From contig NZ_UEYQ01000006.1 in assembly GCF_900492205.1 (NCBI RefSeq), positions 62,001-126,000 on the forward strand: a stretch of DNA of 64,000 nucleotides, in the 5' to 3' direction. The DNA comes from Ciceribacter sp. T2.26MG-112.2 (GTDB taxonomy: Bacteria; Pseudomonadota; Alphaproteobacteria; Rhizobiales; Rhizobiaceae). How positions within the stretch are numbered: position 1 is the first letter of the stretch; every line of letters starts with the position of its first letter. Both the position numbers and the translations under genes were made by a program. Positions 10,186-56,894 of the stretch are shown piece by piece. The notes below the pieces were generated by a model. That model did not search any database and had not been told where the DNA came from. It was given only the letters and a program-made list of their open reading frames with translations.

Positions 10186-11601
10186 TCAGGCGTGTTCGCG
10201 GGCCAGCCAGGCCTTGCAGTCGTCGAGCGCCCGGGCGGCCATCAACTGCCGTTTCATGATCGTCTTGTCCTTGCCGCGAAAGCGCTTGATGCCCTCCGGC
10301 TTGACGATCGACCCCGGAGCGAGGTCCGGAAACAGCCCGAAATTGATGTTCATCGGCTGGAAGGAGCGCTTGCCGGGCTCCTCGTCGCTGACGAGATGGC
10401 CCCCGGTAATATGGTTGAGCAACGAGCCCATGGCGGTCGTCTGCGGCGGCGGGACGGGCATTTCACCCTTGCGCTCGGCGGCGGCGAAGCGACCGGCGAG
10501 GAGTCCGATCGAGGCGCTCTCGACATAGCCTTCACAGCCGGTGATCTGGCCGGCAAAGCGAAGTTCCGGCCGGCTTTTCAGCGCCAGCGTCGGATCCAGC
10601 AGGACAGGGGAATTTATATAGGTATTGCGGTGCAGGCCACCGAGGCGGGCGAACTCGGCATTTTCGAGGCCCGGGATCATGCGGAAGATTTCCGCCTGCG
10701 CGCCGTAGCGCAGCTTGGTCTGGAAGCCGACCATATTGTAGAGCGTGCCGAGTGCGTTGTCCTGGCGCAATTGCACTACCGCATAGGGCTTGACGGTCGG
10801 ATCGTGGGCGTTGGTGAGGCCCATAGGCTTCATCGGGCCGTGGCGCAAGGTTTCGCGGCCGCGCTCGGCCATGACCTCGATCGGCAGGCAGCCATCGAAA
10901 TAGGGCGTGCCTTCCCACTCCTTGAAGCCGACCGCGTCGCCGGCAATCAGCTCATCGATGAAGGCATTGTATTGCGCTTCGTCGAGGGGGCAGTTGATGT
11001 AGTCCTTGCCTGTGCCGCCGGGCCCGACCTTGTCATAGCGTGACTGGTACCAGCAAATGTCCATGTCGATCGAGTCGCGATAGACGATCGGCGCGATCGC
11101 GTCGAAGAAGGCGAGGGCGTCCTCGCCCGTTTCCGCGCGAATCGCCTCGGCGAGATCGGGCGACGTCAGCGGGCCGGTGGCGATGATTGTCGAGCCCCAG
11201 TCTTTCGGCGGCAGGCCGGTGATCTCTTCACGCACGACGGTAATCAGAGGATGAGCCTCGACCGATTGGCTCACCGCCTCGGCAAAGCCGTCTCTGTCGA
11301 CGGCCAGTGCGCCGCCGGCCGGCACCTGGTGTTTATCGGCGCAGGCCATGATGAGTGATCCGGCAAGCCGCATCTCGGCGTGAATGACGCCGACGGCATT
11401 GGCGGTCGCGTCGTCCGAGCGGAAGGAATTGGAGCAGACCAGTTCGGCAAGACTGTCTGTCTTGTGCGCGTCGGTGCCACGCACGCCGCGCATTTCGTGG
11501 AGAATGACCGGAACGCCGGCCTCGGCCGCCTGCCAGGCGGCTTCCGATCCGGCAAGCCCGCCGCCGACGACATGAATGGGGAGAAGAGTGCTTTTCATCA
11601 T
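10186..11601 (-). CDS. trmFO: tRNA (uracil-54-C5) methyltransferase TrmFO, folate/FAD dependent
   Basis: Flavoprotein (471 aa from ATG 11601) that makes ribothymidine at position 54 of tRNA using methylenetetrahydrofolate and FADH2. The N-terminal dinucleotide-binding glycine motif is [19 protein letters not shown]. The conserved segment with the cysteine, [17 protein letters not shown], follows at about residues 53-69. Further TrmFO blocks are KDYINCPL and [17 protein letters not shown]. Consecutive ATGs at 11601 and 11598 make the exact start uncertain by one codon. The frame stays open up to 11637. Confidence 0.95.
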
Positions 11602-11695
11602 GGCGTGCTGCTTATCACGGGGTGGGCGAAGGGCCAATCCTTTCCGGCCTGCTGCAAGCAGGCAGAGGGAAGACCGCGGGGCAGCCCGGAATCAA

Positions 11696-11719
11696 GAACG
11701 GCACCCGAAGGTGCCGTTC
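11696..11719 (-). terminator. Hairpin after the first DUF1127 gene
   Basis: Perfect 10-bp stem GAACGGCACC (11696-11705) and GGTGCCGTTC (11710-11719) with loop CGAA. On the minus strand it is followed only by TTGATT, so the U tail is weak. It lies 28 bases past the stop of the DUF1127 gene. Confidence 0.6.
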
Positions 11720-11747
11720 CCGCCGCCAGAAAGCTCAACCTTCGCGA

Positions 11748-11891
11748 TTAGCGAAAGGAGCGAGCGGCGATGTTGCGAATTTCGTAGCGGGTGATGCCGA
11801 TGTCGGACAGGGCCTGGTTGGACAGGTTGCCCAGTTCGTTCATCGTGCGGCGGTAGCTCATCCAGTTCTTGGCAATGCGGATCGGGTTCAT
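11748..11891 (-). CDS. DUF1127 small protein, copy 1
   Basis: A 47-residue basic protein with the DUF1127 core: MNPIRIAKNWMSYRRTMNEL, then GNLSNQALSDIGITRYEI, then a short Arg-rich tail. DUF1127 proteins are small Arg-rich polypeptides common in Rhizobiales. In Agrobacterium they have been connected to RNA turnover and phosphate/carbon physiology, but the molecular activity is not settled. The second copy (12130-12276) shares the N-x-W-x-x-Y-R-x-T and L-x-D-I/L-G-I spacing. Its promoter region carries a 13-mer shared with the aSD sRNA upstream region. Confidence 0.85.
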   Translation of the reverse strand: MNPIRIAKNWMSYRRTMNELGNLSNQALSDIGITRYEIRNIAARSFR

Positions 11892-11957
11892 GGTCGTTTC
11901 CTCGGGTGAATCTCTTGCGCTGATCTCGTGGTTTCCTCCACCTCAGCGATTGAGCGT

Positions 11958-11992
11958 TTTATACGCCCGTAAAACAATATTGTGCAGTGCAA
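11958..11992 (-). promoter_or_regulatory. Candidate promoter of DUF1127 copy 1 with 13-mer over the -35
   Basis: On the minus strand, TGCACA (11986-11981), 17 bases, then TATAAA (11963-11958). The -35 lies within a 13-mer, TTGTGCAGTGCAA on the plus strand at 11980-11992. The same 13-mer recurs at 12735-12747. A related TGCAATTGTGCA lies just upstream at about 12010-12021. The layout suggests a regulator site overlapping the -35. Confidence 0.45.
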
Positions 11993-12081
11993 ATTATGAG
12001 CGACTGCTATGCAATTGTGCATGGAATGGCGAATTATGTGGCAGAGACGAGGAAGTAGGCAATCGTCCGTCCGGACAGGCA

Positions 12082-12110
12082 ACAAAAAAGGCCCCCGAAG
12101 GAGCCTTTTG
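12082..12110 (-). terminator. Terminator after DUF1127 copy 2
   Basis: On the minus strand, CAAAAGGCTCC, a TTCG-type loop, then GGGGGCCTTTTTTG, with a six-T tail. A classic intrinsic terminator 20 bases past the stop of the second DUF1127 gene. Confidence 0.85.
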
Positions 12111-12129
12111 TCATCATCTGGGATGGCGA

Positions 12130-12276
12130 TCAGCCAGCGACGGCGTGCCGTGCAACCCGGCGAATATCTTCGCGACCAATGCCGAGGTCGCGCAGTTCCC
12201 GGTCCGACATGCGTCCGAGTTCGGTGACGGTCTGACGGTACTTGCGCCAGTTGTTGAGCGAGCGTGCGATGTTCAT
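12130..12276 (-). CDS. DUF1127 small protein, copy 2
   Basis: A 48-residue basic protein with the same architecture as copy 1: MNIARSLNNWRKYRQTVTEL, then GRMSDRELRDLGIGREDI, then RRVARHAVAG. It begins at ATG 12276 and stops with TGA at 12130-12132. It has its own promoter and terminator, so it is a monocistronic small gene. The pair probably arose by an old duplication: the spacing is the same but few residues are identical. Family role as for copy 1; a nucleic-acid contact through the arginine-rich helices is inference. Confidence 0.88.
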   Translation of the reverse strand: MNIARSLNNWRKYRQTVTELGRMSDRELRDLGIGREDIRRVARHAVAG

Positions 12277-12335
12277 GGTCTTGCCTCTTGTTTCGCGGCT
12301 TCCCATCGGGGTGCCGGCCTGAATCTGATGAATGT

Positions 12336-12364
12336 TATATATGCTGCGGTGCGAAAGACTTGAA
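12336..12364 (-). promoter_or_regulatory. Promoter of DUF1127 copy 2
   Basis: On the minus strand, TTCAAG (12364-12359), exactly 17 bases, then TATATA (12341-12336). Just upstream of the -35 is an inverted repeat, GGAGTC (12370-12375) and GACTCC (12380-12385), that could be an operator. Confidence 0.55.
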
Positions 12365-12518
12365 GTGACGGAGTCGTATGACTCCTATGCGGCAGTTGCA
12401 TAGGCCATGGATCGAGGGGCGGTGGCGTTGATCAAGAATTCGCCAGGCGCTCGAGCGCCGGCCGGCTCGGAAATCGCCCGCAGGATCATGTGGGTTGGCG
12501 GCTGCGGTGGAGTGAAGA

Positions 12519-12645
12519 CAAAAAATAACGCTCACCGGGGGAGGAGGATCCGGTGAGCGTCATTTTGACAGACTGACGACTGGGAGGAGGAGTGTCGTCA
12601 GTCAAATCGACGCTGCGCTGGGAGGAGGAGTGCGCAGGGTCGAAG
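12519..12645 (-). ncRNA. Anti-Shine-Dalgarno sRNA, alpha-r14 / NfeR1-like
   Basis: Three hairpins in a row on the minus strand, each exposing a CUCCUCC loop. The first pairs CTGCGC with GCGCAG (12613-12637). The second pairs GACTGACGAC with GTCGTCAGTC (12571-12603). Both carry the identical 13-base loop ACTCCTCCTCCCA. The third pairs ACGCTCACCGG with CCGGTGAGCGT (12528-12560) around ATCCTCCTCCC. It runs into TTATTTTTT and is the terminator. Repeated anti-Shine-Dalgarno loops in a stable three-hairpin RNA of about 125 nt define the rhizobial alpha-r14 family (NfeR1 in Sinorhizobium), which pairs with ribosome sites of transporter mRNAs. The 5' end is estimated from family length. Confidence 0.85.
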
Positions 12646-12713
12646 GTCGTATCGGTGGGATGTCCACCGCTTGAGCGGGTCGAAGTCATTTCGTCCGCGC
12701 TCTGTTGAAATTG

Positions 12714-12747
12714 ACAATAGCGGAAAAATCGATCTTGTGCAGTGCAA
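12714..12747 (-). promoter_or_regulatory. Possible promoter of the aSD sRNA with shared 13-mer
   Basis: On the minus strand, TGCACA (12741-12736), 16 bases, then TATTGT (12719-12714). The -35 is inside the 13-mer found also at 11980-11992. If it is used, transcription would begin near 12707, giving a transcript longer than the 123-nt type expected for the family. The site may therefore be a regulatory element instead. Confidence 0.35.
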
Positions 12748-12915
12748 TATCATCATGGAAGCCATGCGCAAAGTGCATGGTGGGGCCCAGGCCGTTGGTC
12801 CCAACTTGGTCGGCGGCCCGGATTGTATTTTGCCGGCGCTCGGCTCAAGAATGGCAGCCAGAACCGGAAGGGCGCATTGGGCTTCGCCGAGCGGCCCCGT
12901 GGGGCGGAGGGTTGC

Positions 12916-14019
12916 ATGTATCGCGGACGATTGAAGCGGGATTTGGCGCTTTGGGTGGAGAAGCGGCTGATCGGCCAGGATGTGGCCGACGCCTTGTTGC
13001 GCGACTTTGATTCTCGCCGTTCGTCCTTCAGCATTGGCGGCGTTCTGATGATCCTGGCCGCCGTGCTGATCGCCGCTTCCATTCTGTTGCTGATCGCCGC
13101 CAACTGGCAGGAGATCCCGCGGCTGGTGAAGATCGGCGGGATCGTTGCGCTGATCTGGATCTTTTATGGCCTTGCGGCCATTTGCTTCGCCCGCGGTGCG
13201 GATCGCCTTGGCGGCGCCTTGCTGGTCTTGGGTGCGGCCTGCTTCGGCGGGGCGATTTCGCTGATCGGCCAGCTCTACCACCTGTCGGGTGACGCGTTCG
13301 ACGCCATGCTGCTGTGGTTCGCCATGACCGTGCTCTCGGCAGCGGCGTTCCGATCGGCCGCGCTGACGGTCATGGCCGGGCTTCTGTCCTTTTCCGCCTT
13401 CGGCGCCTTTCTCGATCTGTTCGAGGGCGAATGGCATGGGCTCTATGGCTGGTGGCCGGTGCTCTCGAGCCTCGTCATCGGGCTGTTGAGCGCCTGGACC
13501 GGGGCCGAGCGGGCCCGGCATTTCATCTATCTCCTATTGCTCGGCTGGTGCGGCTGGCTCTATTCGCTCTGGCCGGAGGTGGGAACGGCGGTTGCCTTCG
13601 CCGCGGTCGGACTTGCAGCTTTCGTCGCCGTAACGTTGCCTATGTCGCCGGTTTCTCGGATCCTTGGCGGCCTGGGCGCGGGCCCGGCCTTCTATTCACT
13701 GGTGCTGGCCCTGCTCGGGCTCGGGCTGCTGCACCTTGAATGGACCGATGGCGCCGGTCTGGCCCTGCTGGGGATCGTCACCATCGCCGTCACCCTCCTG
13801 GCGCTTGCGCTCGACGGGCGCGACAACGGCGCTGTGCGCTATCTCGCCTATGCGGTTTTCGCCGGCGAGGTGCTCTACCTTTCCTTCGTCACCATCGATT
13901 CCATGCTCGGCACCTCGGCCTTCTTCCTGCTGGCGGGCCTGGTTGTCGCGGTTCTGGCAATGGTCGTGGTGCGGCTGGAAAGGCTGTTTGCCACACGGAT
14001 TTCGGAGGATCGGGCATGA
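12916..14019 (+). CDS. DUF2157 multi-pass membrane protein
   Basis: Integral membrane protein (367 aa from ATG 12916). The short cytoplasmic N-terminus (MYRGRLKRDLALWVEKRLIG) and the first helices (IGGVLMILAAVLIAASILLL) match the DUF2157 family. Roughly ten hydrophobic helices follow. No transport or catalytic motif is visible and the family function is unknown. Its TGA stop overlaps the ATG of the next gene (ATGA at 14016-14019). The next gene encodes a GDYXXLXY protein, a pairing often seen with DUF2157 and DUF4401 proteins, which implies a joint membrane function. An upstream in-frame ATG at 12742 was rejected. Confidence 0.88.
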   Translation: MYRGRLKRDLALWVEKRLIGQDVADALLRDFDSRRSSFSIGGVLMILAAVLIAASILLLIAANWQEIPRLVKIGGIVALIWIFYGLAAICFARGADRLGGALLVLGAACFGGAISLIGQLYHLSGDAFDAMLLWFAMTVLSAAAFRSAALTVMAGLLSFSAFGAFLDLFEGEWHGLYGWWPVLSSLVIGLLSAWTGAERARHFIYLLLLGWCGWLYSLWPEVGTAVAFAAVGLAAFVAVTLPMSPVSRILGGLGAGPAFYSLVLALLGLGLLHLEWTDGAGLALLGIVTIAVTLLALALDGRDNGAVRYLAYAVFAGEVLYLSFVTIDSMLGTSAFFLLAGLVVAVLAMVVVRLERLFATRISEDRA

Positions 14020-27919: not shown

Positions 27920-28090
27920 ATGATCCCAGTGGAAGAACGTGATTTGGGGCACGGCGCGGGCAGGGCGAGCCATGATCGCTGGGGCGTGGATGACGAGGAA
28001 TACGAGGGTGCGCGCAACTGGGCCGTCATACTTCTCTATGTTCCTTTGATGACCGTGCCTTTTCTCGCCGTCGCCTGGTTCCTTGCGTGA
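27920..28090 (+). CDS. Small single-pass membrane protein
   Basis: A 56-aa protein: a charged N-terminal half (MIPVEERDLGHGAGRASHDR) and one hydrophobic C-terminal helix (WAVILLYVPLMTVPFLAVAW). It has a strong ribosome site, GGGGAGGAG, just before the start, with ATG 27920 or the adjacent TTG 27917 as initiator. No family recognised. It sits alone between hom and recJ, where several related genomes carry glpX, so it may be lineage-specific. Confidence 0.6.
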   Translation: MIPVEERDLGHGAGRASHDRWGVDDEEYEGARNWAVILLYVPLMTVPFLAVAWFLA

Positions 28091-30070: not shown

Positions 30071-30145
30071 TGGCACGCCCTAGGGGAGTCGAACCCCTCT
30101 TCCCAGAATGAAAATCTGGTGTCCTAACCGATAGACGAAGGGCGC
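30071..30145 (-). tRNA. tRNA-Glu (UUC), copy 1
   Basis: A 75-nt tRNA on the minus strand. Acceptor GCGCCCT pairs with AGGGCGT. The anticodon loop TTTTCAT between CCAGA and TCTGG gives UUC. The T arm is AGGGG-TTCGACT-CCCCT and CCA is encoded. It is identical to the copy at 30338-30412 over the whole mature sequence. Confidence 0.96.
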
Positions 30146-30337: not shown

Positions 30338-30412
30338 TGGCACGCCCTAGGGGAGTCGAACCCCTCTTCCCAGAATGAAAATCTGGTGTCCTAACCGATA
30401 GACGAAGGGCGC
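30338..30412 (-). tRNA. tRNA-Glu (UUC), copy 2
   Basis: A second 75-nt tRNA-Glu gene identical to the first, with the same orientation and 192 bases between them. The 5' flank (a GGCGCC...TATAAG-type segment) is also conserved, so the duplicated unit included the promoter. Confidence 0.96.
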
Positions 30413-56768: not shown

Positions 56769-56785
56769 GCCACCAGCATTCCACA

Positions 56786-56865
56786 CGCGAGACTTGGGAT
56801 CGACCGGGAGACATCCGGAAGGTTCCGCCGGTGGCATCCTTGAAAAAGGTGCTGTTTGTCTCGCG
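56786..56865 (+). promoter_or_regulatory. Structured 5' leader of rpsB
   Basis: A perfect 8-bp long-range helix, CGCGAGAC (56786-56793) and GTCTCGCG (56858-56865), encloses a domain with internal hairpins (around CCGGAAGGTTCCGCCGG). It lies between the promoter and the rpsB start. This looks like a ribosomal-protein autoregulatory leader, in which S2 would bind its own mRNA. Confidence 0.5.
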
Positions 56866-56894
56866 GGGGTTCAACCGGAAAAGGAGAAAAAGGC

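Follow-up and report, generated by a model that had tools for sequence, protein, structure and literature searches.

An alpha-r14 small RNA next to two DUF1127 genes in a Ciceribacter genome, and a promoter plan that they may share

The window (the whole stretch of 64,000 nucleotides from Ciceribacter sp. T2.26MG-112.2 that we analysed) carries on its minus strand, at 12523–12648, a small RNA (sRNA) that is a member of the known alpha-r14 (cuckoo) family, with two DUF1127 genes downstream on the same strand (Table 1). Taken as a whole, the explanation that we regard as very probable is an alpha-r14 sRNA with its own LsrB/VtlR-type promoter, which represses through its loops and is co-regulated with the DUF1127 genes. 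By itself the window sRNA is an ordinary member of a well-described family, and the suggested shared regulation is a small addition; new, if modest, are the retention of the sRNA-DUF1127 pair upstream of trmFO and the common promoter plan. The original prediction from this sequence held in its family assignment and is less well supported in its named targets and its transcript length.

Table 1 Features of the sRNA-DUF1127-trmFO locus in window coordinates.
Feature	Position	Strand	Basis
TGCA-N6-GCAT box (LsrB-like) upstream of sRNA	12764..12777	(-)	motif from PMC10746234
TTGCACTGCACAA, conserved promoter element of sRNA	12735..12747	(-)	promoter alignment
Candidate -10 of sRNA, CTATTG	12715..12720	(-)	alignment of 29 promoters
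Possible sRNA 5' leader with its own small hairpin	12649..12706	(-)	inferred from -10 position and fold
ar14 (cuckoo-type) sRNA, three anti-Shine-Dalgarno (aSD)-loop hairpins, the third a terminator	12523..12648	(-)	Rfam RF02344, fold, covariation
Loop 1, ACTCCTCCTCCCA	12619..12631	(-)	sequence position
Loop 2, same 13-mer as loop 1 (ACTCCTCCTCCCA)	12581..12593	(-)	sequence position
Loop 3, ATCCTCCTCCC, inside terminator hairpin	12539..12549	(-)	sequence position
TGCA-N6-GCAT box upstream of DUF1127 A	12387..12400	(-)	motif match
Candidate -10 of DUF1127 A, TATATA	12341-12336	(-)	sequence position
DUF1127 gene A, 48 aa	12130..12276	(-)	PF06568 60.2 bits
Terminator-like inverted repeat and T run after DUF1127 A	12083..12109	(-)	sequence read directly
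TGCA-N5-GCAT variant box upstream of DUF1127 B	12009..12021	(-)	motif match
TTGCACTGCACAA upstream of DUF1127 B	11980-11992	(-)	same 13-mer as at sRNA
Candidate -10 of DUF1127 B, TATAAA	11963-11958	(-)	sequence position
DUF1127 gene B, 47 aa	11748..11891	(-)	PF06568 51.6 bits
trmFO (GidA family), syntenic anchor of the locus	10186..11637	(-)	PF01134 329.5 bits; 80 relatives

The covariance search suggested together with the original family assignment bore it out: an Rfam covariance-model scan matched RF02344 (ar14) over model positions 1–123 of 123 with 110.1 bits (E = 1.7e-19; cut-off 58.8). Three minus-strand hairpins had been described as perfect, which is true of hairpin 2 (12603–12571; 10 pairs) and hairpin 3 (12566–12523; one G-U pair), both uninterrupted, while hairpin 1 (12643–12607; 11 pairs) contains one C.C mismatch and is not strictly perfect. 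Two of the loops are identical 13-mers, as had been noticed, and the last hairpin, with six T at 12525–12520, is an intrinsic terminator as proposed. The fold has a minimum free energy of -61 kcal/mol compared to a shuffled mean of -26.2 (sd 3.15; z = -11.06), and because 0 of 200 shuffles were as good, the hairpin array is not a product of chance. In addition, CCTCCTCCC is absent from the plus strand of the window and has four occurrences on the minus strand, three of which fall inside the sRNA. We then aligned 34 copies, five from this genome and 29 of the best-scoring family matches, and counted 37 pairs: 88.7% of the cells were paired and 34 of the 37 pairs showed both-sided change, with 0 of 500 shuffles as high and slid controls at 36–46% paired. 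The structure was taken from one of the 34 copies and the copies were chosen by ar14 score, both of which favour that structure; the size of the effect despite this selection bias leaves little doubt that the stem structure is real. The loops are near-invariant across the same copies. A peptide reading was also considered and rejected: the 67-aa ORF over the sRNA (12486–12689) has no Pfam match, and stem covariation favours an RNA.

The genome (80 contigs, 4.97 Mb) contains five ar14 copies over the cut-off, four of which are accompanied, within the fetched flank, by a same-strand DUF1127-like ORF. The remaining copy (L004) is solitary, its flank being free of DUF1127. Three similar cassettes on contigs C46 and C45 (L006, L007 and L008) consist of DUF1127 followed by an aSD RNA; L006 and L007 carry an additional aSD motif before the ar14 match, and their RNA is preceded by a perfect TGCA-N6-GCAT box, and in L008 the additional motif is altered and the box imperfect. 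An ar14 match was present in 116 of 121 sampled genomes of the family as the search tool groups it (108 over the cut-off), and in 32 of 101 genomes sampled across the order (11 over the cut-off), a sample that takes in this genome and two family members. Elsewhere in the window, an rpsB sRNA match (RF01815; 45.3 bits, cut-off 40) at 56782–56893 (+) directly precedes the ribosomal S2 gene (L204) starting at ~56895, and two tRNA matches of identical sequence (30074–30145 and 30341–30412, minus strand; both 55.0 bits) start 267 nt apart.

Conserved promoter elements predict that the sRNA starts at ~12706, which would make the primary transcript about 189 nt long; the transcript of ~125 nt originally expected is less supported. 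By a count made by eye, 10 of the 29 promoters in the alignment have CTATATT at the -10 position. The CTATTG of the window is weaker than the corresponding elements of its relatives and lies outside the -10 forms counted in the spacing test below. The two neighbouring genes had been named as DUF1127 from the outset, an identification confirmed by Pfam, and their upstream regions follow the plan of the sRNA: from box start to candidate -10 start the distance is 57 nt for the sRNA, 59 nt for DUF1127 A and 58 nt for DUF1127 B. On the minus strand of the window, the only two occurrences of the 13-mer TTGCACTGCACAA are those in front of the sRNA and of DUF1127 B. Because their candidate promoters share this plan, DUF1127 A and B are probably co-regulated with the sRNA, with no read-through from it. 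A simple terminator scan of 11600–13000 listed no site.

Counts of TGCA-N6-GCAT in the window are insufficient to carry this point, since 7 of 100 shuffles reach the observed six (2.47 expected); it is carried by placement across relatives. As zones we took the 400 nt upstream of each ar14 or DUF1127 element, together 9.7% of the sequence. In the 80 best trmFO loci and the window locus, 73 of 88 boxes fell into these zones, and such boxes were present in 54 of 81 loci, the boxes of related genomes being non-independent. A TATAT-like -10 followed at 40–80 nt in 47 of the 73 in-zone boxes, and in 42 of these the two starts were 58 or 59 nt apart; among the 15 out-of-zone boxes two had one, in one case at 59 nt. 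Control pairs of the same letters (n = 575) averaged 1.1 in zone, and the highest, GCAT-N6-CATG with 53, overlaps the same conserved block in alignments read by eye. Other half-site spacings gave in-zone/out-of-zone counts of 3/3 (N4), 38/4 (N5), 1/14 (N7) and 18/20 (N8), compared to 73/15 for N6; TGCA-N5-GCAT is thus concentrated in the zone as well. Two results speak against the proposed promoters and an LsrB-type regulator. The published LsrB consensus GCAT-N3-TG-N3-T had 10 matches in the window (7.67 expected) and no exact one at the sRNA-DUF1127 locus. An E. coli-type sigma-70 scan returned two nearby sites, at 12062–12033 and 12021–11993 (-), neither of which coincides with the promoter proposed for the sRNA or for DUF1127 A.

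The proposed regulator type builds on published work. LsrB activates NfeR1, and its reported site at the nfeR1 promoter has the TGCA-N6-GCAT form (PMC10746234). Brucella VtlR activates three DUF1127 genes along with AbcR2 (PMC12595884), and lsrB adjoins abcR1/2 in S. meliloti (PMC8844928). Four AbcR/suhB-type RNAs exceed the cut-off in the genome under study, and we read the neighbourhoods of two: one (L207) has a LysR-family gene 146 nt upstream, and the ORF list around the other, the best-scoring of the four (L206), contains no LysR-like neighbour. From promoter sequence and these precedents we infer shared LsrB/VtlR-type control of the sRNA and the DUF1127 genes. No description of a shared sRNA/DUF1127 promoter plan was found in the available parts of the literature covered, outside which the primary 2015 cuckoo-RNA paper falls.

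The weak candidate -10 raises the prospect of a silent paralogue, intact in sequence and little or not at all expressed, with another copy doing the work. Such a situation would resemble that in S. meliloti, where Northern blots reliably show no more than one of the six copies (PMC7143759). However, stems, loops and box are all intact in the window copy and many relatives retain the locus, and we consider silence unlikely, while giving it appreciable weight.

We next turn to the locus in related genomes, anchored on the gene at 10186–11637, which we take to be trmFO rather than gidA. Its product is closest, among the matches listed, to Rhizobium and Allorhizobium records (91 and 89% identity). 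The comparison comprised the best 80 of at least 591 relatives, with no random draw, and ar14-type RNAs were sought in the loci with a covariance model built in this analysis. This model gave 112 matches at E <= 0.01, one of them the window itself; four weak ones (L066 twice, L024 and L028; E 1.3e-4 to 2e-3) were excluded from the architecture count. An ar14-type RNA was present in 62 of the 80 loci. Sixty contained both RNA and DUF1127, in every case on the trmFO strand and upstream of trmFO, and the other two RNA-bearing loci are cut by contig ends. A retained ar14 match was absent from 18 of the 80, six of which also had no DUF1127. A tRNA scan of seven of the 80 relatives found tRNA-Leu in six.

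Gene order divides the 60 loci evenly. The RNA comes first in 30, from records named Rhizobium, Allorhizobium, Sinorhizobium/Ensifer, Shinella, Ciceribacter, Mycoplana, Pararhizobium, Pseudorhizobium, Endobacterium, Gellertiella and two 'Rhizobiales bacterium' entries. DUF1127 comes first in the other 30, from Mesorhizobium, Brucella/Ochrobactrum, Phyllobacterium, Aminobacter, Nitratireductor, Pseudaminobacter, Oricola, Aurantimonas, Aureimonas, Kaistia, one 'Phyllobacteriaceae bacterium' and two 'Hyphomicrobiales bacterium' entries. No genus named in the record titles is common to both groups. We presume the RNA-first group to be Rhizobiaceae and the DUF1127-first group to belong to other families, a placement checked for Allorhizobium taibaishanense and Mesorhizobium; we do not claim this difference between families as new. 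In 32 of 35 measured cases, an RNA that follows DUF1127 lies 4–26 nt from the DUF1127 domain. In RNA-first loci the two are separated by 179–463 nt, as measured in 27 of 31 such loci with the window among them. Mixed arrays also occur among the trmFO loci (dRdRd, RdRdd, RdRd and dRdR, with R for RNA and d for DUF1127) and suggest an ancestral tandem array that may have undergone differing losses. In an Aurantimonas record (L055, 3076–3881), six tandem ar14-type RNAs stand behind one DUF1127 gene upstream of trmFO.

These arrangements bear on the possibility that the hairpins are a regulatory leader (attenuator) of the DUF1127 mRNA, the sRNA being merely its terminated product. Both are on the same strand, DUF1127 A begins 247 nt past the sRNA end, and an S. 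meliloti DUF1127 gene is controlled by leader attenuation (PMC12218461). Nevertheless, DUF1127 A has a separate conserved candidate promoter (box and TATAT) downstream of the sRNA terminator, which makes read-through or attenuation unlikely, and a leader is at odds with the 30 of 60 relatives in which DUF1127 comes first. In addition, the sole intrinsic-terminator candidate of the S. meliloti leader proved inactive as a terminator (PMC12218461), and the terms smr14, ar14 and nfer1 are absent from the text of that paper. We therefore hold an attenuator to be highly improbable and retain an independently transcribed sRNA as the preferred reading.

As to targets, the original prediction had named the DUF815 gene, the gene for a 56-aa protein, phaC and tetR as natural candidates. 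Their sites, all of GGAGG type, match the loops over 7, 8, 7 and 8 nt, respectively, the match of the 56-aa gene (27920–28090) preceding an ATG and those of phaC and tetR preceding TTG starts in a crude ORF reading. They are not singled out: 26 ORFs in the window have a loop match of at least 6 nt. Across the genome, GGGAGGAG-N3-9-ATG occurs 42 times (reversed-pattern control, 4) and the control Shine-Dalgarno pattern AAGGAGAA-N3-9-ATG 43 times. The target set scanned consisted of ORFs of at least 100 aa plus the 56-aa gene of L161, with L135 duplicating L134; of the 28 control ORFs, 26 were scanned, the own sites of L167 and L181 giving 93 and 55 aa. Components of ABC or TRAP transporters made up 8 of 30 ORFs of at least 100 aa behind GGGAGGAG vs 1 of 26 behind AAGGAGAA (Fisher one-sided p = 0.022); the eight are Peripla_BP_6 (three times), ABC_tran (twice), BPD_transp_2, DctP and DctQ. 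The ATG of L141 seems to lie inside a longer ABC ATPase, and leaving this ORF out gives a ratio of 7/29 vs 1/26 (p = 0.037). When ORFs with at least 60 open upstream codons were dropped from both sets the ratio became 3/22 vs 1/19 (p = 0.36), a filter that also removes ORFs such as L140, L142 and L158, which by eye have signal-peptide-like beginnings. These numbers are suggestive, if fragile, of a lean of loop-matching sites to uptake transporters, in agreement with the published target class of NfeR1.

So weak a target-site bias would also fit loops that, instead of acting on specific mRNAs, serve as a titrating decoy that captures either Shine-Dalgarno sequences generally or an RNA-binding protein, for example DUF1127. 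The likeness of the loops, two of them identical and the third almost so, is in keeping with titration, as is the DUF1127 linkage, the Rhodobacter sphaeroides homologue CcaF1 being known to bind RNA and to promote maturation of the aSD-type CcsR RNAs (PMC10253847). NfeR1 with all three loops mutated, on the other hand, no longer represses ntrB (PMC10746234), and we rate a decoy as improbable. In the preferred reading of loop-mediated repression, the sRNA would be transcribed alone from a promoter with an LsrB/VtlR-type box and be terminated by hairpin 3. The three aSD loops would be exposed, and any one of them could then pair with purine-rich ribosome-binding sites of trans-encoded mRNAs, probably including those of uptake transporters, and block translation. 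By analogy with CcaF1, the DUF1127 proteins may act on the sRNA or on RNA turnover.

More tentatively, as a reading that we hold less likely than not, the aSD sRNA of Hyphomicrobiales and its DUF1127 neighbours would make up a single module under an LsrB/VtlR-type regulator, its linkage and box kept despite the difference in order between Rhizobiaceae and the other families, with own boxed promoters where the sRNA is first. If one such module has been kept, DUF1127 proteins would be working partners of aSD RNAs in rhizobia too. Small DUF1127 proteins of A. tumefaciens act through PhoR (PMC12501420), and with a common promoter plan and a retained linkage, a rhizobium would offer a setting in which to test whether DUF1127 works by binding RNA or by binding PhoR.

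The alpha-r14/NfeR1 kind is established in print as to family, loop mechanism and copy number (PMC3927594, PMC7143759, PMC10746234). With Rfam RF02344 (ar14/alpha-r14; SmelA075 and SmelA099 groups) the window sRNA shares the full-length match, the three hairpins and the CCUCCUCCC loops, as well as variable stems and several copies per genome (PMC3927594). It differs in the longer 5' leader predicted for it, and nothing excludes membership. NfeR1 (Smr14C2) of Sinorhizobium meliloti, which silences ntrB via its loops (PMC10746234; loop-dependent repression also in PMC7143759), belongs to the same family and has like loops; its box lies at -72 to -57 (PMC10746234) and that of the window sRNA at ~-71 to -58 from the predicted start. 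Sought as a mark of orthology to NfeR1, the published promoter string CTTAGAC-N17-CTATAT had no exact match when the window locus and the best 80 relatives were searched on the trmFO strand, and its looser form none in 30 other ar14 loci, so that this search lacks a positive control. AbcR1/2 (alpha-r15) with LsrB/VtlR offers a parallel in aSD mechanism, LysR-type activator and transporter targets (PMC8844928, PMC12595884), and is an RNA family other than ar14. The link of aSD RNAs to DUF1127 genes is itself already published: in cuckoo RNA/CIN1 and R. sphaeroides ccaF1-CcsR1-4, aSD RNAs are linked to a short DUF1127 gene on the same strand (PMC10253847). There, one operon has DUF1127 first, whereas the window locus departs from this operon type in its reversed order, with the sRNA's own terminator and a candidate DUF1127 promoter in between. 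The relatives in which the RNA lies 4–26 nt after DUF1127 match the published ccaF1-CcsR order.
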